DNA of 21,467 nucleotides from the IMG/VR virus record IMGVR_UViG_3300032265_002399, positions 1-21,467 of that record; one strand, written 5' to 3'. Below are positions 2,888-19,843 of the stretch, piece after piece. The DNA is from a virus. The position numbers were made by a program, and so were the translations under genes. The stretch's first letter is position 1, and each line of letters begins with the position of its first letter. A model generated the notes under the pieces. The model was not told the origin of the DNA, ran no database searches, and saw only the letters and a list, made by a program, of their open reading frames with translations.

Positions 2888-4599
2888 TTATATTCCAAAA
2901 GGTCAGATGGCGTAATTTTTTAAGCACCGGCGCAGCATTTACCGAAATCAATTTTCAAAAATCTCCAAACACACTCATTATTGGCAACAATGGTGCAGGT
3001 AAGTCCACTATATTGGACGCTTTGTGTTTTGGTTTGTTTGGTAAACCATTTCGTAAAATCAATAAACCACAACTATTAAATTCTATCAACCAAAAAGATT
3101 GTGTTGTTGAGATTGAATTTTCTATTGGTAAAAAACAATATAAAATTATTCGTGGTATTAAACCAAATATATTTGAAATCTATTGTAATGATATTCTTGT
3201 CAACCAAGATGCTGCCTCTAAAGATTACCAAGAAATTTTAGAAAAGAACCTTCTTAAATTAAACTTTAAATCATTTACTCAGGTAGTTATTCTTGGTTCA
3301 GCTTCTTTCGTTCCTTTTATGCAATTGAGTCCTTCTGACCGAAGAACCATCATAGAAGATTTGTTAGACATTGGTATCTTTTCATCAATGAATAGTTTGG
3401 TCAAAACCAAAATGTCTGAAATTAAAGATGCCAACATAAAGAACAAATATGAAATGGATTTAACTACCGAAAGAATTAATTTTCAGAAGCAAAGTATTGA
3501 GGACCACAAAACTCGATCAAATGAAGAAATTGAAAAGAAAAAAACAGAAGTTTTAACAAATATAAATCAAACTTTTACTCTACAAAAAGATATTGAATTA
3601 ATCCAAAAACACATTGATATTCTTCAGAAAAAAATTGAAAATAAAATTTCTGTAGAAAAGAAAAGTAGGAAGTTGTTGCAGTTAGAATCAAAAATTGAAA
3701 CCAACATTAAAAAAAATGAAAAGGACATAGCATTCTATGAAGAACACGACAATTGCCCAACCTGTAAACAAACCATCGATGGAGAATTCAAAATCGAACA
3801 GGTCAATGAAAGAAAAAACAAAGTCACTACTCAACGGCAAGGCCTTGAGGAAATTGCAACACAGATTGCTCAAACAAACAGCAGAATAGAAGAAATACAC
3901 GGCATAATTAAACACATCACCGAACACAACAACGAAATTGTTAAACACAATTCTACCGTTAATGCTATTAACAAATATATCAATAAACTCCAAAGAGAAA
4001 TTGAAGAACTTAAAAATAGAAAAGATAATTTGGAAGAAGAAAATGCAAAGCTCAAAGAGTTGCGTGATCAACTATTAGAATTGTCGGATAAACAAGAACA
4101 ATTGGCAACCGAAAAACAATATTATGAGTTTGCTGGTAATCTTTTAAAAGATACTGGTATTAAGACAAAAATTATCAAACAATATTTACCAATTATGAAT
4201 AAATTGATTAATAAGTATTTGACTGCAATGGACTTCTTTGTAAACTTTAACATCAATGAATCCTTTGAAGAAACAATCAAGAGTAGACACCGTGATGAAT
4301 TTAGTTATTCCAATTTTTCAGAAGGTGAGAAAATGCGTATTGATTTGGCACTATTATTCACTTGGCGTCAGATTGCTAAATTGAAAAATTCAACAAACAC
4401 CAACTTGTTGATTTTAGATGAAGTGTTTGATTCTTCTTTGGATGGTGTTGGTACTGATGAATTTTTAAAATTAATTTATGAAATGGGAACAGAATCTAAT
4501 GTGTTTATTATTTCACACAAAGGCGATCAATTATTTGATAAATTCCGGAGCGTAATCCGATTTGAGAAACATAACAATTTTAGTAGGATATCAACATGA
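2884..4599 (+). CDS. 46: gp46 recombination nuclease ATPase (Rad50/SbcC family)
   Basis: A 571-residue SMC-like ATPase, partner of gp47. Walker A is GNNGAGKST at residues 34-42. A long coiled coil with many K, E and N residues fills about residues 180-420 and carries a CPTC zinc hook (C291, C294) at its apex. The ABC signature FSEGEK lies at 478-483 and Walker B LLILDEVFD near 508-516, with D512 and E513 as catalytic acids, followed by IISHKGDQ with the switch histidine. Length is close to T4 gp46 (560). The start overlaps the gene 47 stop by 4 bases (ATGA) and its own stop overlaps the deformylase start likewise. All expected functional residues are present. Confidence 0.95.
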   Translation: MIIFQKVRWRNFLSTGAAFTEINFQKSPNTLIIGNNGAGKSTILDALCFGLFGKPFRKINKPQLLNSINQKDCVVEIEFSIGKKQYKIIRGIKPNIFEIYCNDILVNQDAASKDYQEILEKNLLKLNFKSFTQVVILGSASFVPFMQLSPSDRRTIIEDLLDIGIFSSMNSLVKTKMSEIKDANIKNKYEMDLTTERINFQKQSIEDHKTRSNEEIEKKKTEVLTNINQTFTLQKDIELIQKHIDILQKKIENKISVEKKSRKLLQLESKIETNIKKNEKDIAFYEEHDNCPTCKQTIDGEFKIEQVNERKNKVTTQRQGLEEIATQIAQTNSRIEEIHGIIKHITEHNNEIVKHNSTVNAINKYINKLQREIEELKNRKDNLEEENAKLKELRDQLLELSDKQEQLATEKQYYEFAGNLLKDTGIKTKIIKQYLPIMNKLINKYLTAMDFFVNFNINESFEETIKSRHRDEFSYSNFSEGEKMRIDLALLFTWRQIAKLKNSTNTNLLILDEVFDSSLDGVGTDEFLKLIYEMGTESNVFIISHKGDQLFDKFRSVIRFEKHNNFSRIST

Positions 4600-5168
4600 G
4601 TGAAATCATTAAATTTAATACGGAAGAATTAGCAAAAAATCCTTCAACATTAACACAACAAATACCAATTTTTGATTTGGTTCCAGAAAAGCATCCTGTT
4701 TTAAAACAAGTTTTGTCGGATTTTGATTTTAGTAATCCTCCTGTAAATCCAAATGAGTTTGCATCCTCATTGGTGGAAACTTGTAAAATTCATAAAGGTT
4801 ATGGTCTATCTGCCAACCAATGCGGATTTACCCATCGTGTGTTCGTGATGGGTGCTGGTGATGATTTTGTGGCATTTTTTAATCCAAAAATTTTGGCTTC
4901 TTCTGGTGAGGCACACATGGTTGAAGGTTGTTTATCTTTTCCATTCTTAGGATTAAGAATTACAAGGCCAGCAAATATTGATGTTGAATATCAAGATTTT
5001 AATGGTATCAAAAGAACGGCAACTTATCATGGCATATCTGCTCGTTGTTTCCTTCACGAGCTTGATCATTTGAATGGAATCGTGTATACTAGTCGATGTA
5101 AGCCAATGGCTTTAGAACAAGGTAACAAAAAGCGTAATAAAATTATGAAAAATTTGAGAATCCGTTAA
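4596..5168 (+). CDS. pdf: Peptide deformylase
   Basis: A 190-residue metalloenzyme that removes the formyl group from the N-terminal methionine of new proteins. All three family motifs are intact: GYGLSANQ (68-75), EGCLS with metal ligand C112, and HELDH with H154, catalytic E155 and H158. About 35-40 residues precede the usual start of the fold. Deformylase is a known host-derived metabolic gene in aquatic T4-like phages, where it is thought to keep protein maturation going during infection. It sits downstream of gene 46 with an ATGA overlap and an AGGA ribosome site 7 bases before its ATG, and its stop overlaps the next start (TAATG). An active enzyme is expected. Confidence 0.93.
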   Translation: MSEIIKFNTEELAKNPSTLTQQIPIFDLVPEKHPVLKQVLSDFDFSNPPVNPNEFASSLVETCKIHKGYGLSANQCGFTHRVFVMGAGDDFVAFFNPKILASSGEAHMVEGCLSFPFLGLRITRPANIDVEYQDFNGIKRTATYHGISARCFLHELDHLNGIVYTSRCKPMALEQGNKKRNKIMKNLRIR

Positions 5169-6433
5169 TGGCAACACCAATTGAATTTGTAGAAAATCAA
5201 TGGCAAAAATGGTCAGAAGCCAATCCTGTCGAAAAGTTTGAACATATTGATGAAGAATCGATGAAAGAAAAACTCATCGAGGACTTAACTTATGCTTCTC
5301 AGATGGATGTTCGTGAGTATACTTTATATCAAAAATGGTGTGAGGTAAAGGAAAGATATCCTGTTCAAGAAGTGTCTACGTTATTTGGTGATGATATTCA
5401 GATGGTTGATCCTGAACAAAACAAATTGGTTGATAAAGTTAAAAAGAACTTTTGGGTACCACAAAGTCCTGATGACTTTGAAAACCTTAAACCTAAAATG
5501 GTTCTTTCAAATGGTCCTGATGCCGAAAGATGGAATGCCATTCGTACCTTTTCTTCTACAATGAAGAATAATTCTAACATTGGCCGTAATCTATTTTATG
5601 TTTTAACTGATGAAGTAACTGGTAAGTACCTTGGTGTTATCTGTATCTCCTCTGACTTCTTGGACTTAACTCCAAGAGATAATGCAATCGGATGGTCGAG
5701 AGATGTTAAAACACAGCAACACATGATTAATCATACAGCAATTGGATCCACCATCGTTCCGTTACAACCCCTTGGTTATAATTACATGGGTGGTAAATTA
5801 CTGGCACTAATGTGTTTATCGGATACAGTTCAAGCAGATTGGAAAAGGCAATATGGCGACACTCTTGTTGGCGTTACTACAACGTCATTATATGGAAAAA
5901 CAAAAGCTGGGGGCCTTTCGCAGTATGATGGTCTTGAGCATTGGAATCCTATGGGCTTTTCTTCTGGCTCGGTCGCTTTCGAACCATCGAGAGCAACTAA
6001 AAAATTAGTATTCGATTGGATCAAAGAAAATCATACTCGTAAATATTTTGAATGGTGGGAAGCCAAAAATCCACAAGGTCTTCCACTCAAGCGTGACCAC
6101 AAGAATCGTTCCTTAAATTTTGCATATTCTAAGTTACAGATACCAAAAGAATTGATTCGTACCGAACATCAACGTGGAATTTATTTTAGTCCACTATACA
6201 ATAACACTAATGAATTTCTCCGTAAGGAGATTACAGATTCGGAACTGGTAAAGTCATTTGATACCAGCGAAGAAGCTTTGGCAAACATTTGGAAAACCAA
6301 ATATGCCAAAGGTAGAATCAGGCAATTACAGAAAAAGAATAATGTTTCATATGAAACCCTTTTCTATGATGACTTGATTTGGTTATCTTGGGAAGAAACC
6401 AAAGCCAAATATTTACCACAAGTTGGTAGATAA
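5168..6433 (+). CDS. DUF4338-like protein, related to Druantia DruA (tentative)
   Basis: A 421-residue protein of unsure function. The central part, residues about 140-250, reads like DUF4338, the family of DruA from Druantia anti-phage systems: NLFYVL, then YLGVICISSDF, then RDNAIGW (170-176), an N-H-T-A-I-G strand, a segment rich in L and G ending GGKLLALM, and a W-x6-YGDTLVG block (Y229, G230, D231) followed by TTTSLYGK. The RDxAIGW and W...YGD...V elements are what I recognise; the usual GT-Y-AANW ending is not obvious. The flanking N- and C-terminal thirds are not recognised. It begins in a TAATG overlap with the deformylase, so it belongs to the 47-46-pdf operon rather than to a defence island. 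The role might be acting on DNA or countering host defence, but that is inference. Confidence 0.55.
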   Translation: MATPIEFVENQWQKWSEANPVEKFEHIDEESMKEKLIEDLTYASQMDVREYTLYQKWCEVKERYPVQEVSTLFGDDIQMVDPEQNKLVDKVKKNFWVPQSPDDFENLKPKMVLSNGPDAERWNAIRTFSSTMKNNSNIGRNLFYVLTDEVTGKYLGVICISSDFLDLTPRDNAIGWSRDVKTQQHMINHTAIGSTIVPLQPLGYNYMGGKLLALMCLSDTVQADWKRQYGDTLVGVTTTSLYGKTKAGGLSQYDGLEHWNPMGFSSGSVAFEPSRATKKLVFDWIKENHTRKYFEWWEAKNPQGLPLKRDHKNRSLNFAYSKLQIPKELIRTEHQRGIYFSPLYNNTNEFLRKEITDSELVKSFDTSEEALANIWKTKYAKGRIRQLQKKNNVSYETLFYDDLIWLSWEETKAKYLPQVGR

Positions 6434-6449
6434 TTGTTGTGAACCGCTG

Positions 6450-6467
6450 TGTTGGTAGTAACCAACA
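6450..6467. repeat. Perfect 7-4-7 inverted repeat upstream of the ParB-like gene
   Basis: TGTTGGT-AGTA-ACCAACA, 18 bases, in the 59-base gap between two genes and ending 25 bases before the ATG at 6493. A second, outer complementary pair (GTTGT at 6436-6440 and ACAAC at 6470-6474) could extend it as an RNA or cruciform structure with an internal loop. No T-run follows, so it is not a standard terminator. It may be an operator, a ParB-type binding site or an mRNA structure. Confidence 0.6.
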
Positions 6468-6492
6468 TTACAACCTGAAATAAGGAAATAAA

Positions 6493-7602
6493 ATGAAAAT
6501 TGATTTAAATATAGAAACATCTTTAAAGAATTGTCCGCCAAGTAAAAATCCGGCATTAAAGAACATTCCAGCCGCCGAATTGAAAAACATTATACACGTT
6601 GGTCGAAAAAGGATCGATGTTAATAATGTAACATATAAAGTGGAAGACCAAACGAGAGAATTAAAAGTTGTGCAAGAAAGCGTTGCACCAATTAAAATTT
6701 CTTTTGATTTAAATGGTTTTATTCATACCGAATATCCTCCTGTTGTTGTTGAAGATTCCAATAAACCTGGCCACTATTTTGGAATTATAGGACACACAAG
6801 AGACCAAGCAATTAAACAGTTAAATATTGAGTTTATGATGTATGATGTATATCAATTTAATTCTCCTTTGTCCAGGAGATATTTTAATAACATTTCAAAC
6901 CAAGAACATACTCCTAAAAATCCACATACAAAAACCGATATCATTTTTCAAACACTACAAGCAATTGATTTTGAAGAATTAACTAATACCGAAGATAAGA
7001 TTATGGAATTTATTGATGTGGTTGCTTCAGATAAATCTAAGAAAGAACGAAAATCAATCTACAAAGGTGTTCGAGAAAGGAAATCTGAATATGCAAATTT
7101 GGCCACATATCATTGTGGTAATGGTTTAAATTCAACGGTTGAAGCTGCAAAGAAATTTAATATTCCATACAAAGGTATGTCCGGACATCCAACCACAGGA
7201 AAAATTGGTTATATTCCACCTTATGCGGATCCAATTACAAATTTTGCAGCTTCTAAAAAATTATTAAAAACGCATGGTTGGCAGCCTGTGTATTTTACAT
7301 TTTATATTCCTAAACCTCAACCTGAACCCGCTTTAACAAAACAAAGGTGTTCTTGGGAAGATGAATTTGATTCTGCCGTAAAAGATGAAGCCGAATGGAT
7401 CCAAATGGTAATGAATCAATTAGGCCACGATGTAGATTTGAAAAAGATTATTAATGTTTTACCTTGGACAAAAAACAATTGGCTTCCATGTAATTTGGAT
7501 CCCGTTGCTCAAAAGGGTGGCAAACCAAAAGAAGAAACCATTGTTAACAAATATGGTAATCCTGTTGGTGATAGTGCCAAAATCATTAAATTTGGTACTT
7601 AA
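6493..7602 (+). CDS. Protein with ParB-like N-terminal region, function unknown
   Basis: A 369-residue protein. Residues about 68-160 follow the ParB/sulfiredoxin-fold pattern: a strand with DLNG, then YPPVVV, a GIIGHTRDQAIKQLN stretch matching the usual G-x-x-R-x-x-A motif, two short strands, then a NxxxxxPxxPHTKTDII helix where ParB proteins have their second conserved box. The rest is unrecognised; it contains a helix rich in K and E (170-200), a NPxG-poor middle with CGNG, and a proline-rich hinge (PKPQPEPA near 275). Start chosen by a clear AAGGAA site 6 bases upstream. ParB-like domains occur in partition proteins, nucleases and DNA modification enzymes, so no reaction can be assigned. 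It follows the DUF4338-like gene and a palindrome at 6450. Confidence 0.5.
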   Translation: MKIDLNIETSLKNCPPSKNPALKNIPAAELKNIIHVGRKRIDVNNVTYKVEDQTRELKVVQESVAPIKISFDLNGFIHTEYPPVVVEDSNKPGHYFGIIGHTRDQAIKQLNIEFMMYDVYQFNSPLSRRYFNNISNQEHTPKNPHTKTDIIFQTLQAIDFEELTNTEDKIMEFIDVVASDKSKKERKSIYKGVRERKSEYANLATYHCGNGLNSTVEAAKKFNIPYKGMSGHPTTGKIGYIPPYADPITNFAASKKLLKTHGWQPVYFTFYIPKPQPEPALTKQRCSWEDEFDSAVKDEAEWIQMVMNQLGHDVDLKKIINVLPWTKNNWLPCNLDPVAQKGGKPKEETIVNKYGNPVGDSAKIIKFGT

Positions 7603-7623: not shown

Positions 7624-7653
7624 TTGACAAACACACATACATAATGATATGAT
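7624..7653 (+). promoter_or_regulatory. Sigma-70-type promoter for the winged-helix gene
   Basis: TTGACA at 7624-7629, 18-base spacer, TATGAT at 7648-7653. The predicted start near 7660 gives a leader of about 46 bases. It lies in the 103-base gap between the ParB-like gene and the winged-helix gene. Confidence 0.65.
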
Positions 7654-7660
7654 GTGAGAA

Positions 7661-7675
7661 CTTGCATTACGCAAG
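7661..7675 (+). promoter_or_regulatory. Leader hairpin in the winged-helix gene mRNA
   Basis: CTTGC-ATTAC-GCAAG, a 5-base-pair stem with a 5-base loop, at the very 5' end of the predicted transcript and followed shortly by GATTTTTTAA. It could act as a weak attenuator, as a stabilising 5' stem, or as a dyad operator overlapping the transcription start. The role is inferred only from position. Confidence 0.4.
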
Positions 7676-7705
7676 GATTTTTTAACTTTACTATGGAGTA
7701 TTATT

Positions 7706-7975
7706 ATGAGCAAGAATTTATCTGCTAAAGAAAAGATGTTAGCCGCTTTGTCAAAACAAGAAGGTTATAACACTTTTACTGTCAAACAAGCACAACGCCG
7801 TTTTGGCATTACCAATGTTACAGCACGCATTGACGAACTCCGTCAAGAAGGTCATGTAATTTACACCAACAAGAAAACTGTTGATGGTAAGAAAGTTGCT
7901 TTCTATCGTATGGGTAAACCAACCAAATCTTTGGTTAAGGCTGCTTTAAAATCTGGTTATTCTTTGAGTGCCTAA
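7706..7975 (+). CDS. Small winged-helix DNA-binding protein
   Basis: An 89-residue basic protein. Residues 20-70 form a winged helix: FTVKQAQRRFGITNVTARI is the helix-turn-helix, DELRQEGHVIYT leads into the wing, and a lysine-rich hairpin (NKKTVDGKKVAFYRM) is the wing. This matches a family of small phage DNA-binding proteins with the A-x-x-RFGI-x-N-x-x-ARI-x-ELR pattern. GGAG at 7695-7698 lies 7 bases before the ATG. It is a monocistronic unit with its own promoter (7624) and a strong terminator (7986), which suggests a high, independently timed level. It could be a regulator or nucleoid-type protein; its targets are unknown. Palindromes at 6450 and 15589 are candidate binding sites by speculation only. 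Confidence 0.75.
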   Translation: MSKNLSAKEKMLAALSKQEGYNTFTVKQAQRRFGITNVTARIDELRQEGHVIYTNKKTVDGKKVAFYRMGKPTKSLVKAALKSGYSLSA

Positions 7976-8029: not shown

Positions 8030-8848
8030 ATGGAAATCTCGATTAAAAAAGAAGAATTACAAAAGAAAAGCCTATTCGTTGCCACACCAATGTATGGCGG
8101 TATGAATCATGGTTTATACATGAAGGCGTGTTTAGATTTGCAAAGTATTTGCACTCAATACGGAATTCCTATTAAGTTCTCATTCTTATTTAATGAGTCC
8201 TTAATTACTCGAGCAAGAAATTATCTTGTCGATGAGTTTATTCACAGGTCTGATTGTTCACATATGTTGTTTATCGATTCAGACATTCATTTTAATCCAC
8301 AAGACGTTATTGCTTTGTTAGCTTTAGATAAAGATGTTTCTGGTGGTCCTTATCCTAAAAAAGCCATCAAATGGCGATCTGTCAAAAAAGCAGTAGAAAA
8401 AAATCCAGATATTGATGCTGGTATGTTAGAAAAAATTACTGGTGACTATGTGTTTAATCCCGTTAAAGGCACAGCACAATTCCAGGTTACAGAGCCATTA
8501 GCCGTATTAGAAATTGGCACGGGATTTATGTTAATTAAGCGTGAAGTGTTCAAAAAAATGGAAAATGCTTATCCAATGATTCGTTATAAACCAGACCATG
8601 TTGGCCAAGCAAACTTTGACGGATCACGTTATATCCATGCTTACTTTGATACTGTGATTGATACTACTGATAGTATTACCGGTGGCGGATCTGATCGTTA
8701 TCTTTCAGAAGATTATATGTTTTGCCAAATGTGGCGCAAGATTGGTGGAGAAATTTATCTTTGTCCGTGGATGAAAACATCTCATATTGGCACTTATCAC
8801 TTCCAAGGAGATATGCCAGCAGTTGCTAATTTTGTTGGAGAAATGTGA
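8030..8848 (+). CDS. Glycosyltransferase-like protein, GT-A fold
   Basis: A 272-residue protein resembling family 2 type glycosyltransferases found in phages. The N-terminal strand reads LFVATPMYGG (15-24), followed by LITRARNYLVDEF (58-70), and then MLFIDSDIHF with the DxD metal and nucleotide-sugar binding motif at D83-S84-D85. A later SEDYMFCQMWRKIGG segment matches the acidic acceptor-side helix of this fold. There are no membrane segments or signal peptide, so it acts in the cytoplasm. Acceptor and sugar cannot be told: phage DNA bases, virion proteins or host surface sugars are possible. GGAG at 8021-8024 fixes the start. It begins after a terminator and its stop overlaps the MazZ-like gene, so it likely heads the clamp operon, though no clear promoter is visible between 8010 and 8029. 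Confidence 0.7.
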   Translation: MEISIKKEELQKKSLFVATPMYGGMNHGLYMKACLDLQSICTQYGIPIKFSFLFNESLITRARNYLVDEFIHRSDCSHMLFIDSDIHFNPQDVIALLALDKDVSGGPYPKKAIKWRSVKKAVEKNPDIDAGMLEKITGDYVFNPVKGTAQFQVTEPLAVLEIGTGFMLIKREVFKKMENAYPMIRYKPDHVGQANFDGSRYIHAYFDTVIDTTDSITGGGSDRYLSEDYMFCQMWRKIGGEIYLCPWMKTSHIGTYHFQGDMPAVANFVGEM

Positions 8849-12896: not shown

Positions 12897-13355
12897 ATGA
12901 AAAGTAAATTTATTGATGCTTACATGGATGTTGCAAAACGATTTGCCAAATTGTCTACCGCTAAAAGATTAAAAGTTGGTGCCATTGTTGTAAAAAATGA
13001 CCGAATTATTAGTATTGGTTATAATGGAATGCCATCAGGATGGACCAATGAGTGTGAAGAAGTAATTGAACAGCATGAAGATGGCGGTCAAGTCACACAA
13101 ACTAAATTAGAAGTAATTCATGCAGAAGCTAATGCGATTGCTAAGTTAGCTAAAAGTATTGAATCGGGAGAAGGTGCTAAAATGTTCTTAACTCATGCTC
13201 CTTGTATACATTGCGCAAAACAAATTTATACAGCCGGCATAAATATAGTATACTTTGGTCAACATTACCGAGATACTCTTGGCGTTGATTTTCTAAAAAA
13301 ATGTCACATAAAGGTAATACAATGGCCTGGGGAAAACACCTCATCCTTGATGTAA
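12897..13355 (+). CDS. dCMP deaminase
   Basis: A 152-residue zinc-dependent deaminase that converts dCMP to dUMP for dTMP synthesis. Zinc and catalytic residues are intact: HAE at H75-A76-E77, with E77 the proton shuttle, and PCIHC with C103 and C106. The N-terminal RLKVGAIVVKNDRIISIGYNGMPSG block (in parts) is typical of the dCMP deaminase/ComEB family, distinguishing it from cytidine deaminases. The ribosome site is weak and only 11 bases separate it from the previous gene. The SpeD-like gene starts inside its 3' end. It supplies thymidine precursors for this AT-rich genome. Identity is confident; whether T4-like allosteric control exists is not visible. Confidence 0.92.
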   Translation: MKSKFIDAYMDVAKRFAKLSTAKRLKVGAIVVKNDRIISIGYNGMPSGWTNECEEVIEQHEDGGQVTQTKLEVIHAEANAIAKLAKSIESGEGAKMFLTHAPCIHCAKQIYTAGINIVYFGQHYRDTLGVDFLKKCHIKVIQWPGENTSSLM

Positions 13356-13678
13356 AAGGATGCGAATTAATTCGAGCAAATGATCCTGAATATATCAAAC
13401 ACTTCACAAAAGAATTGGTAAGATTAATTGAAATGGTACCATACGGAGAACCACAATTGGTACATTTTGCTGATAATACCGATAAAGCTGGTTGGACCGT
13501 AATACAATTAATCACAACTTCAAGTATTGTTGGGCATTTTTTAGACCACAATGGAGACCTTTACCTTGATGTTTTTAGTTGTAAAGACTTTTCGGAACAT
13601 ACTGTAATTTCTGCTTTAAGACAGTTCTTTTCACCTGGTGAAATTAAACACCAAGTCATTCAACGAGATGCAAATTGA
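13322..13678 (+). CDS. speD: S-adenosylmethionine decarboxylase-like protein (SpeD type)
   Basis: A 118-residue protein of the AdoMet decarboxylase proenzyme family, which makes decarboxylated AdoMet for spermidine synthesis. Visible blocks are WGKHLILDVKGCE at the N-terminus, GWTVIQLITTSSIVGH and LYLDVFSC. Aligned with the Thermotoga enzyme (S63, H68, C83), the pyruvoyl-forming serine, proton donor and cysteine fall at S67, H72 and C87, all with the same offset of four. The residue before the serine is T instead of E and the one after is S instead of H, so self-cleavage should be tested. The ATG at 13322 (AAGG 7 bases upstream) is preferred over 13301 because similarity begins at MAWGKH. The gene overlaps the dCMP deaminase by 34 bases. 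Confidence 0.8.
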   Translation: MAWGKHLILDVKGCELIRANDPEYIKHFTKELVRLIEMVPYGEPQLVHFADNTDKAGWTVIQLITTSSIVGHFLDHNGDLYLDVFSCKDFSEHTVISALRQFFSPGEIKHQVIQRDAN

Positions 13679-16370: not shown

Positions 16371-18917
16371 TTGAACGATTTTTATACGAATGTACAATCT
16401 TTTGGTAACAACATCCTTTTTCGTGGTATTGTTAACGGTAAAAGAGTAAAAGAGAAGATTGAATATTCTCCATCTCTTTTTTTACCATCTAAAAAAATAA
16501 CTAATTTCACCACACTAGATGGTGATTATCTAGATCAAAAAATCTTTAGTTCCATTCGTGATGCTAAAGATTACATTAAACAATTTGAAGGTGTTTCTAA
16601 TGCGTCAAAAATTTATGGCCAAACTCGGTTTGAATATGCTTTTATTGCAGATCAATATCAAGGTATGGTGGATTATGATCAAGAAAAAGTTCTCATTGCG
16701 GTAGTTGATATTGAGGTTGGTTCTGATAATGGATTTCCTAATCCTTATGAAGCCAACGAACCTATCACTGCTATCGCTATCAAATATATCAACGGACCAA
16801 TGTATGTGTTTGGCTGTGGCATCTACGAAACCCAAGGAGATGAAATTTATGTAAAGTGCAAAGATGAATATTCTCTTTGCAGACAATTCATGGAACTCTG
16901 GACTAAAAAATGTCCTGATATTTTGACTGGTTGGAATACCAAATTCTTTGATGAACCTTATATCATCAATCGTTTCCGTAAAATTCTTGGAGAAGATGCG
17001 ACCAAGAAGTTATCACCATGGAATTATCTAGGTGAACGTAAAACAGTAATTAATGGTAGACAGATGATTGCCTATAATATAATGGGTGTTGAATCGCTTG
17101 ATTATATTGAACTATATAAATGGTATGCTCCTGGCGGTAAGTCACAGGAGAACTATAAACTTGATTCTATTGCCAGCGTTGAACTCGGTGAAAGAAAACT
17201 CTCGTTTACTGAATATGATAGTTTACATGATTTATACAAACACAACTATCAAAAGTTTATTGAATATAATATCAAAGACGTAGAACTCATCATCAAGATG
17301 GAAGAAAAGTTAAAGTTATTGGAAATGGCAGTAACTTTGGCTTATGATACCAAAACAAATTACGAAGATGTGTTTGCACAAACTCGTATGTGGGATTCAT
17401 TGACTTATGCTTATCTAATTGAAAAGAATATTGTTGTTCCTCCAAGGATTACTAAAGAAAAAGATTCTGCGTTTGAGGGTGCTTATGTTAAAGAAGTACA
17501 GGTAGGTATGCACCATTATGTCGCCAGCTTTGACCTAAATTCACTTTATCCACATTTAATAATGCAATATAATATTTCTCCTGAAACAATTATTGATCCA
17601 GAAAACTATACCGATGAGATGCGAAAAATACTTTCTTCTGGTGTTTCTGTTGAGAAATTATTAGAAAAGAAAGTTGATTTAGATTGGTTACAAAAATCAA
17701 AGGCCACGATCACACCAAATGGCCAATTCTTTCGTACCGACATACAAGGTTTCTTACCTAGGATGATGGAAGAAATGTATGAAGATCGGAAGAAGTTTAA
17801 AAAATTAATGTTACAAGCAAAAAAAGAATATGAAATTGAAACTGATGATTCAAAAAAATACGAGATTGAAAAACGAATTGCTCGTTATGATAATCTTCAG
17901 TTAGCAAAAAAAGTATCACTAAACTCCGCTTACGGTGCTTTAGGTTCGCAATACTTTAGATTCTATGATTTGCGTATGGCTCTTGGTGTCACCACAGCGG
18001 GTCAATTGTCTATTCGATGGATAGAAAACAAACTTAATGAATATATGAATAAATTGTTAGGAACAAAAGAAGATGACTACGTTATTGCGAGCGATACTGA
18101 TTCGATTTACTTACGACTTGAAGGTCTTGTTAGAAAAATTTATGACGGTAGAGTGGTTGATCCAGCACTCATCATTAAGTTTATGGATAAAGTTTGTAAT
18201 GATAAAATTCAACCGTTTATCGATGCTTCCTATCAAGAACTTGCAGATTATGTGCGAGCATATGATCAAAAAATGCAGATGAAACGAGAAGGTTTGTCTG
18301 ATAAGGGTATCTGGACAGCCAAAAAGCGTTACATTTTAAATGTGTATAATAATGAAGGTGTCCAATACAAAGAGCCTCAGATGAAGGTGATGGGTTTGGA
18401 AATGATTAAATCATCTACTCCTGCTGCCATTCGTGAGAAGATGAAAGAGGCTATCACAATTATGATGCGTGGTACCGAAGAAGATATTCATATATTCATT
18501 AATCAGGCAAAAAAAGATTTTATGAATCTTCCCGCCGAAGATATCTCCTCACCACGTGGTTGTAATGGATTATCTAAATACTCTGACGCATTGACATTAT
18601 ATAAATTGGGAACACCAATTCATGTAAAAGGTGCCATATTGTATAACCATTATCTTAAACAAAAGAATCTTACCAAAAAGTATCCACTCATACAAGAAGG
18701 TGAAAAGTTAAAATATACCTATCTCAAAATGCCTAATCCTTTTAAAGATACGGTGATTTCATTTCCATCTAGATTACCAAAAGAGTTTGAATTACAGGAA
18801 TATATTGATTATGATACTCAATTTGAAAAATCATTTTTAGAACCAATCAAAGTAATTCTAAATTGTATGAAATGGTCTACCGAAAAAGTAAGTAGCTTAG
18901 AGGACTTTTTCTCATGA
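16371..18917 (+). CDS. 43: gp43 DNA polymerase (family B)
   Basis: An 848-residue replicative polymerase with proofreading; T4 gp43 has 898. Exonuclease motifs: VVDIE with D113 and E115 (Exo I), TGWNTKFFDEPYI (Exo II) and YNIKDVE (Exo III). Polymerase motifs: FDLNSLYPHLI (A), KKVSLNSAYGALG (B) and ASDTDSIY with D575 and D577 (C). The C-terminal SLEDFFS corresponds to the T4 clamp-binding tail SLDFLFG. The N-terminus MNDFYTNVQSFGNN aligns with T4 MKEFYISIETVGNN, so translation must begin at the TTG at 16371, which has only a weak AGGT site. T4 represses this gene by gp43 itself and RegA; here weak initiation may play a similar limiting role. Its stop overlaps the membrane protein start (ATGA). 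Confidence 0.95.
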   Translation: MNDFYTNVQSFGNNILFRGIVNGKRVKEKIEYSPSLFLPSKKITNFTTLDGDYLDQKIFSSIRDAKDYIKQFEGVSNASKIYGQTRFEYAFIADQYQGMVDYDQEKVLIAVVDIEVGSDNGFPNPYEANEPITAIAIKYINGPMYVFGCGIYETQGDEIYVKCKDEYSLCRQFMELWTKKCPDILTGWNTKFFDEPYIINRFRKILGEDATKKLSPWNYLGERKTVINGRQMIAYNIMGVESLDYIELYKWYAPGGKSQENYKLDSIASVELGERKLSFTEYDSLHDLYKHNYQKFIEYNIKDVELIIKMEEKLKLLEMAVTLAYDTKTNYEDVFAQTRMWDSLTYAYLIEKNIVVPPRITKEKDSAFEGAYVKEVQVGMHHYVASFDLNSLYPHLIMQYNISPETIIDPENYTDEMRKILSSGVSVEKLLEKKVDLDWLQKSKATITPNGQFFRTDIQGFLPRMMEEMYEDRKKFKKLMLQAKKEYEIETDDSKKYEIEKRIARYDNLQLAKKVSLNSAYGALGSQYFRFYDLRMALGVTTAGQLSIRWIENKLNEYMNKLLGTKEDDYVIASDTDSIYLRLEGLVRKIYDGRVVDPALIIKFMDKVCNDKIQPFIDASYQELADYVRAYDQKMQMKREGLSDKGIWTAKKRYILNVYNNEGVQYKEPQMKVMGLEMIKSSTPAAIREKMKEAITIMMRGTEEDIHIFINQAKKDFMNLPAEDISSPRGCNGLSKYSDALTLYKLGTPIHVKGAILYNHYLKQKNLTKKYPLIQEGEKLKYTYLKMPNPFKDTVISFPSRLPKEFELQEYIDYDTQFEKSFLEPIKVILNCMKWSTEKVSSLEDFFS

Positions 18918-19843
18918 CATACCTAGTATTTCTTGCCGCATTTCTTTTGTCAGGAATATCGGCTTATTATTCTATAATCGGTTTAGCTGCAATCTTTTCT
19001 GGAGCATTTTGGCCAGTTGTGTTTATGGGCTCAGCATTAGAATTTTCTAAATTAGTAACCGCATCTTGGTTATATCGTAATTGGAAGACGGCACCAGTAT
19101 TATTAAAAACATATCTCACTATTGCTGTGGTAATCCTTATGCTTATTACTTCAATGGGCATTTTTGGTTTTTTGGCCAAATCACACATTGATTCCACATT
19201 AGATGCTGGTGCAAATACAGTAGAACTTAAAACACTCAATCAACAACAGAAGATTGCCGAAGAAAGATTAAATTATCTTCTTGCTCGTGCCAAGGATCCA
19301 TCAATAGCAAGTAATCGTTTGGATAATCAAATCCAAAATACTCAAAAAGAACTTACCGATATTAACAAGAAACGTTTGCCGCTGTTAAGGGAATCCAATA
19401 AACTTGTGGCAGATGTTGGTCCAATCAAGTATGTGGCAGATATGTTTTTCGGTGACGGAGATGGTGCATTGGACAAAGCTGTGCGTATGGTAATCTTTGC
19501 TATTATGCTTGTATTTGACCCATTGGCCGTGTTATTATTGATAGCTGGAAATATTAATTTAAAACCAAGAGAAGAAGTAATAGGACCGACCGATGAAGAA
19601 GTTGAAGAAACTAAAGAATGGTTCAAAAATATTAGGGTGAAGTCCAAAAAATTAGATGAAGATAAAATTGAAATTGCCAAAGAGAACATTGCAACAGTAA
19701 AAGAGAATGTGGCGACAGAAGTACAAAAGGTAACAACACAACATGCGCCTGGTGTTTATTCCGAAACATTAGAACCAGTTAAAAAATTAGAACCTAAGTA
19801 TGATTATGAGGCAGAATTAGCATTTCGTGAAAAAGGAAAATAA
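18914..19843 (+). CDS. Membrane protein with coiled coil, between polymerase and uvsX
   Basis: A 309-residue protein with predicted membrane segments at about 3-24, 25-42, 66-88 and 191-213. Between the third and fourth lies a 100-residue polar region rich in E, K, Q and N, likely a coiled coil (about 98-170). The C-terminal 95 residues are charged and cytoplasmic-looking. There is no cleavable signal peptide. It resembles uncharacterised membrane proteins of aquatic T4-like phages, from memory, and no enzymatic motif is visible. It starts in an ATGA overlap with DNA polymerase and ends at the base before the uvsX start, so all three are co-expressed. Anchoring replication at the membrane, or lysis/inhibition control, are possibilities only. 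Confidence 0.8.
   Translation: MTYLVFLAAFLLSGISAYYSIIGLAAIFSGAFWPVVFMGSALEFSKLVTASWLYRNWKTAPVLLKTYLTIAVVILMLITSMGIFGFLAKSHIDSTLDAGANTVELKTLNQQQKIAEERLNYLLARAKDPSIASNRLDNQIQNTQKELTDINKKRLPLLRESNKLVADVGPIKYVADMFFGDGDGALDKAVRMVIFAIMLVFDPLAVLLLIAGNINLKPREEVIGPTDEEVEETKEWFKNIRVKSKKLDEDKIEIAKENIATVKENVATEVQKVTTQHAPGVYSETLEPVKKLEPKYDYEAELAFREKGK

Follow-up and report, generated by a model that had tools for sequence, protein, structure and literature searches.

A DruA-family gene of the T4-type replication cluster in aquatic phages as a candidate GNAT-fold modifier of viral DNA

A gene of the DUF4338/DruA family (gene 1) is embedded in the T4-type replication cluster of a viral DNA of 21,467 nt (IMG/VR record IMGVR_UViG_3300032265_002399, positions 1–21,467; this whole stretch is the window), and in sister phages its slot holds genes of DNA-modification families instead. 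The reading we favour, tentatively and at somewhat less than an even chance, is that gene 1 encodes a replication-coupled GNAT-type enzyme, most likely one that acylates phage DNA and shields it from restriction, with an action like that of Mom but outside the Mom family. The protein would be produced together with the phage replisome, would place an acyl-type group on the bases of phage DNA, either while it is being replicated or afterwards, and the resulting mark would guard that DNA from host restriction; its slot would be exchangeable with other DNA-modification families, namely TAGT glycosyltransferases and C5 methylases.

Gene 1 (5168–6433, plus strand, 421 aa) begins within the stop codon of pdf, the peptide deformylase gene directly upstream (4596–5168, plus strand; Pfam PF01327, E = 1.2e-32); the two overlap as TAATG at 5166–5170, which suggests translational coupling. 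Gene 2 (6493–7602, plus strand, 369 aa) follows, and the slot is closed downstream by a winged HTH gene that is present at most loci (7706–7975, plus strand; PF14090, E = 6e-8). Next comes a glycosyltransferase-like gene (8030–8848, plus strand; phrog_1574, E = 3e-64, with weak matches to Anp1 and phage glycosyltransferases). A 46/47-type gene precedes pdf, and the order continues past the glycosyltransferase-like gene with a dATP/dGTP phosphohydrolase domain, the clamp gp45, the clamp loaders gp44 and gp62, regA, the gp43 polymerase and UvsX; window genes outside the profile scans carry the T4 names that we take them to merit from their sequence. The preliminary description, which had placed two adjacent genes between pdf and the clamp cluster in a T4-type replication setting, is accurate on both counts, and dN/dS against relatives marks both as true genes (0.06–0.09 for gene 1, 0.08–0.16 for gene 2). 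The corresponding values for gp44 (0.06–0.08), gp45 (0.12–0.20) and pdf (0.18–0.28) are, like these, approximate, since many dS values exceed 1. Gene 1 is under strong purifying selection, and is conserved like gp44 and more than gp45.

Several other features of the window were recorded in passing. The glycosyltransferase-like gene, part of the same cluster, has a dN/dS of 0.05–0.07 and is conserved to the same degree as gene 1. The spacer between genes 1 and 2 (6434–6492) contains a putative hairpin, TGTTGGT-AGTA-ACCAACA, and relatives carry candidate hairpins of 6–8 bp with other sequence at this place (L014 and L083: GTAATATCTCTGTGATATTAC). Ahead of the HTH gene, at 7624–7690, lies a conserved promoter-like TTGACA-18 nt-TATGAT, with a short hairpin (CTTGC/GCAAG) and a run of T behind it; the arrangement resembles a leader-attenuator, and relatives keep the hairpin with altered bases. 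Farther downstream are a gene for S-adenosylmethionine decarboxylase (13301–13678; PF02675, E = 9e-18), also annotated in some cyanophages, and, between DNA polymerase and UvsX, a gene for a 309-aa protein that is hydrophobic, probably sits in the membrane and has no clear family match (18914–19843).

Family membership of gene 1, proposed earlier from short motifs, is borne out by profile searches. The protein matches the Pfam DruA family PF14236 at 72.4 bits (cutoff 27, E = 4.7e-20), as do all 64 of 64 diverse relatives, and matches the PADLOC DruA model at E = 3e-16. An hhalign comparison with bacterial DruA, in which one side was free of phage sequences, gave a probability of 99.5 (E = 7.6e-23, 264 columns); it was used in place of a comparison of profiles A2 and A5, which was set aside as circular because A5 includes phage rows. 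Residues G139, G156, R170, P201, G208-G209-K210, G243, G263 and R336 are invariant in 64 phage and bacterial rows; near Y253 the bacterial rows of the 64-row automatic alignment are out of register, and that column was left out of the bacterial comparison. A scan of GTDB genomes with the phage gene 1 protein found nothing, and sequence searches of the PDB gave no convincing relative for either gene. We know of no defined activity for DruA. The viral structures that Foldseek placed closest include predicted proteins of giant viruses (Faunusvirus, Yasminevirus and Dasosvirus; BFVD A0A3G4ZXG3, A0A5K0UAJ3 and A0A3G4ZRA1; E = 1e-20 to 2e-9), which suggests that DruA-like proteins also occur in that group.

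Gene 1 is widespread, with at least 599 relatives in a scan of IMG/VR. Loci were sampled independently of gene 1 through the glycosyltransferase-like neighbour, which served as a neutral probe, and in 66 of the 71 loci obtained gene 1 lies between pdf and the HTH gene; the order of 46/47-type gene, pdf, gene 1, HTH gene, glycosyltransferase-like gene, dATP/dGTP phosphohydrolase domain, gp45 and gp44 was constant in the loci examined. Gene 1 is thus near-core in common freshwater T4-like phages with marine relatives. Among isolates it is found in the Pelagibacter phages Mosig, which has one DruA-like gene, and HTVC008M, which has two (56–59 per cent identity), and, more distantly, in some cyanophages, one of whose DruA-like proteins carries the annotation Mom.

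A search with the gene 1 profile recovered a second family member (B type, about 370 aa) in 17 of 20 longer records, roughly 13–29 kb from gene 1; along almost all of its length the B type is 45–51 per cent identical to a cyanophage protein. In the tree, rows of the slot type (A type), to which gene 1 belongs, form one group (support 96/98), B-type and cyanophage rows a second (100/100) and bacterial DruA a third (100/100), a topology that indicates A and B to be anciently diverged paralogs. The B type also adjoins replication genes: it overlaps the end of the gp41-like replicative helicase gene in the freshwater phage L551 and the end of the gp43 polymerase gene in HTVC008M, and in five cyanophages examined it is flanked by the two clamp-loader genes, gp44 and gp62. 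In L551 it follows shortly after uvsX; the window stops just past uvsX, ahead of the place where a B gene would be expected. A separate observation, made by eye only, is an apparent partial intein directly ahead of the Walker A motif in a gp41-like helicase in another record (L557, 1996–3171; TEGVSSHNTGVGKS).

The clearest pointer to function comes from the loci that lack gene 1. It is missing from five of the 71 (L335, L395, L422, L388 and L433), the last of which has an incomplete slot. In two of the four complete slots (L335 and L395) a TAGT glycosyltransferase (PF20691, E = 9e-46 and 5e-45) is found together with a 115-aa open reading frame. A third (L422) has a C5 cytosine DNA methylase (E = 6e-53), accompanied by a PP-loop protein and a second methyltransferase, and the fourth (L388) has neither kind of modification enzyme, only an endonuclease VII-type reading frame ahead of pdf and a reverse-strand frame that looks GIY-YIG-like by eye. 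Sampling from the TAGT side gave a matching picture, with TAGT mostly close after pdf and slot gene 1 in none of 79 further loci in the DNA covered. Conversely, TAGT was in none of the 20 gene 1 records, and of 18 TAGT records 16 were without any DruA-like gene, one had an intact B gene and one a 75-residue B remnant behind gp41. This exclusivity partly tracks phylogeny, sister phages are not independent, and many of the records are fragments.

Homologs of TAGT in RefSeq phages are named beta-glucosyl-HMC-alpha-glucosyltransferase. In T2 and T6, TAGT functions in DNA hypermodification (PMC13216743), its substrate there being glucosylated hydroxymethylcytosine (PMC13216743, PMC13390438). The takeover of the slot by a glycosyltransferase of a DNA-decorating type suggests, by analogy, that gene 1 chemically marks viral DNA, and this is our main ground for supposing that gene 1 acts on DNA. 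A role of TAGT on DNA in this clade itself is unproven, because the TAGT records are without recognisable genes for hydroxymethyl-base synthesis. Across 38 records, those with TAGT included, no thymidylate-synthase-type (PF00303) or C5 methylase (PF00145) gene was found; TET/JBP (PF12851) and Mom (PF25680) were likewise absent from the 38 in searches that had no positive control. The idea that Mom itself might fill the slot was also considered and rejected: the related Methylophilales phage Melnitz has Mom and no DruA, but its Mom sits elsewhere in the genome. The product of that gene (MZ577097.1, 69571–70380; L343) is Mom-like and has DUF465 as its only annotation.

The predicted structure is compatible with an acyl-transfer chemistry. 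An AlphaFold2 model of gene 1 built from an alignment of 64 relatives (mean pLDDT 90, pTM 0.85) has a core at aa 104–365 (5477–6262, plus strand) that matches Mom and other GNATs. Nearly all of the top PDB matches in Foldseek were acetyltransferases, at weak E-values (best 0.015). The first match in VIA was the Mom protein of phage Mu (8bv8, Z = 10.1, 172 of 202 residues aligned), followed by an IAA acetyltransferase (Z = 9.5), SpeG (Z = 9.3) and many GNATs at Z = 9; a lead of less than one Z unit over ordinary GNATs amounts to a tie. Gene 1 is accordingly predicted to adopt a GNAT acyltransferase fold, and DUF4338 has independently been called a GNAT domain (PMC10853773).

Such a fold would also suit the modification of a protein, and a GNAT that tunes replication by acylating the clamp, the clamp loader, the helicase or a host factor is the strongest alternative, albeit an unlikely one. 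The generic acetyltransferase signal of the structural matches would be explained, as would the overlap of DruA-like genes with genes for clamp loader, polymerase and helicase. Acylation of a protein would on its own leave unexplained why TAGT or a C5 methylase stands in the slot of gene 1 and not alongside it.

A second alternative dispenses with catalysis, and the motifs of the core bear on it. The QPLGYNYMGGKLL motif (aa 200–212; 5765–5803, plus strand) forms a strand-to-helix loop whose GGK, present in every phage and bacterial row, starts a helix following the strand at residues 190–198. In GNATs the strand-to-helix loop at this point holds the acyl-CoA pyrophosphate, and the GGK loop may, on the model, be the equivalent site in gene 1. 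The phage loop, QPxGYN and then GGK, varies little or not at all among phage rows; the canonical form is Q/RxxGxG/A, and the phage loop has N in place of G/A. A second motif, TTTSLYG...SQY (aa 237–253; 5876–5926, plus strand), has TTSLYG and Y253 invariant across phage rows, and Y253 stands at the usual position of the GNAT tyrosine, where it could serve in catalysis. Bacterial DruA has neither the Q nor the G found in the phage loop, which makes catalysis across the wider DruA family uncertain. Gene 1 could on this view be a DruA-like protein without catalytic activity that binds DNA or serves as a scaffold and aids replication or recombination at the fork. Strong conservation and coupling to the replisome would suit a scaffold too; GGK and TTS...G, invariant in phage rows at the ligand and active-site places of a GNAT, would not, and we rate this explanation slightly below acylation of a protein.

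Homology to DruA also allows a decoy, in which gene 1 would mimic host DruA and poison Druantia or a related host system. Near-universal presence in the clade and two ancient paralogs fit a standing role better than the targeting of one patchy defence, and with the deep divergence from bacterial DruA they make a decoy improbable. Counter-defence or DNA processing, two of the roles put forward in the preliminary description, are plausible, with the slot swap favouring DNA modification; a defence role of the gene's own has lost ground, because gene 1 is conserved within the replication cluster and no DruE-sized reading frame is nearby.

Gene 2 had been described as ParB-like from a G-x-x-R-x-x-A block, which is present as GHTRDQA; its G100 and R103 do not vary across an alignment of 12 sequences. 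It has no Pfam match, ParB_N included, and its model (pLDDT 72 overall) is poor beyond residues 36–140. That first domain (about aa 36–140; 6598–6912, plus strand, by the VIA model ranges) resembles KorB (VIA Z = 11.6), ParB (Z = 10.4) and Noc (Foldseek E = 2.3e-5), and gene 2 is predicted to have a ParB/Srx fold of the nucleotide-binding type, placed by fold and outside the ParB_N family. The suggestion that the two genes act as partners fared less well. Gene 2 occurs in three of the 71 loci, against 66 for gene 1; among 15 other loci with gene 2, gene 1 is adjacent in 13, one (L335) has TAGT in place of any DruA and one is incomplete. The pair does recur, contrary to the possibility, raised in the preliminary description, that the two genes would not be found together elsewhere, but it is not obligate. 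Gene 2 has been inserted downstream of gene 1 and ahead of the HTH gene's promoter-like stretch, which retains its sequence in loci with and without the insertion. The gene is best described as a rare, occasional accessory. Elsewhere ParB-like genes adjoin Mom-like genes, for example in Microbacterium phage Appa, and on that account gene 2 might reasonably, though only as a guess, be given an accessory role in DNA modification. A superinfection-exclusion system or inter-phage weapon built from genes 1 and 2 could draw on their recurrent adjacency and on the proposal that ParB-like proteins are effectors of conflict systems (PMC10853773), and is very improbable given that almost all gene 1 loci are without gene 2 and that gene 2 is also found beside TAGT without gene 1.

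There is reason to pursue the favoured reading, DNA modification by gene 1. Near-core, replisome-linked DruA relatives in a slot of DNA-modification type offer a concrete, testable activity for DUF4338 and, if the reading is true, would point to unseen DNA chemistry in aquatic viruses. A wider generalization, possible but doubtful, is that DUF4338 GNATs are a new replisome-coupled class of DNA-base-modifying enzymes, which many aquatic T4-like phages keep as a pair of ancient paralogs and for which sugar- and methyl-based modification modules can be exchanged; by extension, the DruA of Druantia may mark or read DNA.

Among the known systems, Druantia type I has a DruA that has in common with gene 1 the family profile and the invariant G139, G156, R170, GGK, G243 and G263. 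Phage clades are separated from bacterial DruA with full support, and the phage loop QPxGYN differs. Druantia comprises DruA with the large helicase DruE and partners; no genes of partner size lie near gene 1, whose neighbours are T4 replication genes, and the largest reading frame of the window is the 848-aa DNA polymerase. A Druantia system at this locus is ruled out by the lack of a DruE-sized frame in the window. Mom of phage Mu (PF25680) carries out a DNA adenine modification, and its structure, 8bv8, shares the predicted GNAT fold as the top-scoring solved structure, tied with other GNATs. The Mom profile had no match in the scan of gene 1, and an hhalign comparison of A2 with seven Mom proteins gave nothing; in addition, the conserved Ser/Asp of the Mom active site are not evident in gene 1, whose N- and C-terminal parts are longer. 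Without sequence-profile similarity, membership of the Mom family is ruled out.

DruA-like proteins of Synechococcus phages, already reported in the Phold paper (PMC12774648), belong to the same phage family. The cyanophage members that we considered have gp44 and gp62 on either side and fall with the B type, whereas the window gene is of the A type; gene order, the paralog pair and the slot swap do not feature in the part of that account available to us. ParB, Noc, KorB and sulfiredoxin-fold NTP-binding proteins have in common with gene 2 the fold of aa 36–140 and the GxxRxxA motif, the difference being that gene 2 does not match Pfam ParB_N. Finally, TAGT (PF20691; the beta-glucosyl-HMC-alpha-glucosyltransferase of T6), an enzyme family unrelated to gene 1, is what sister phages carry in the slot of gene 1.
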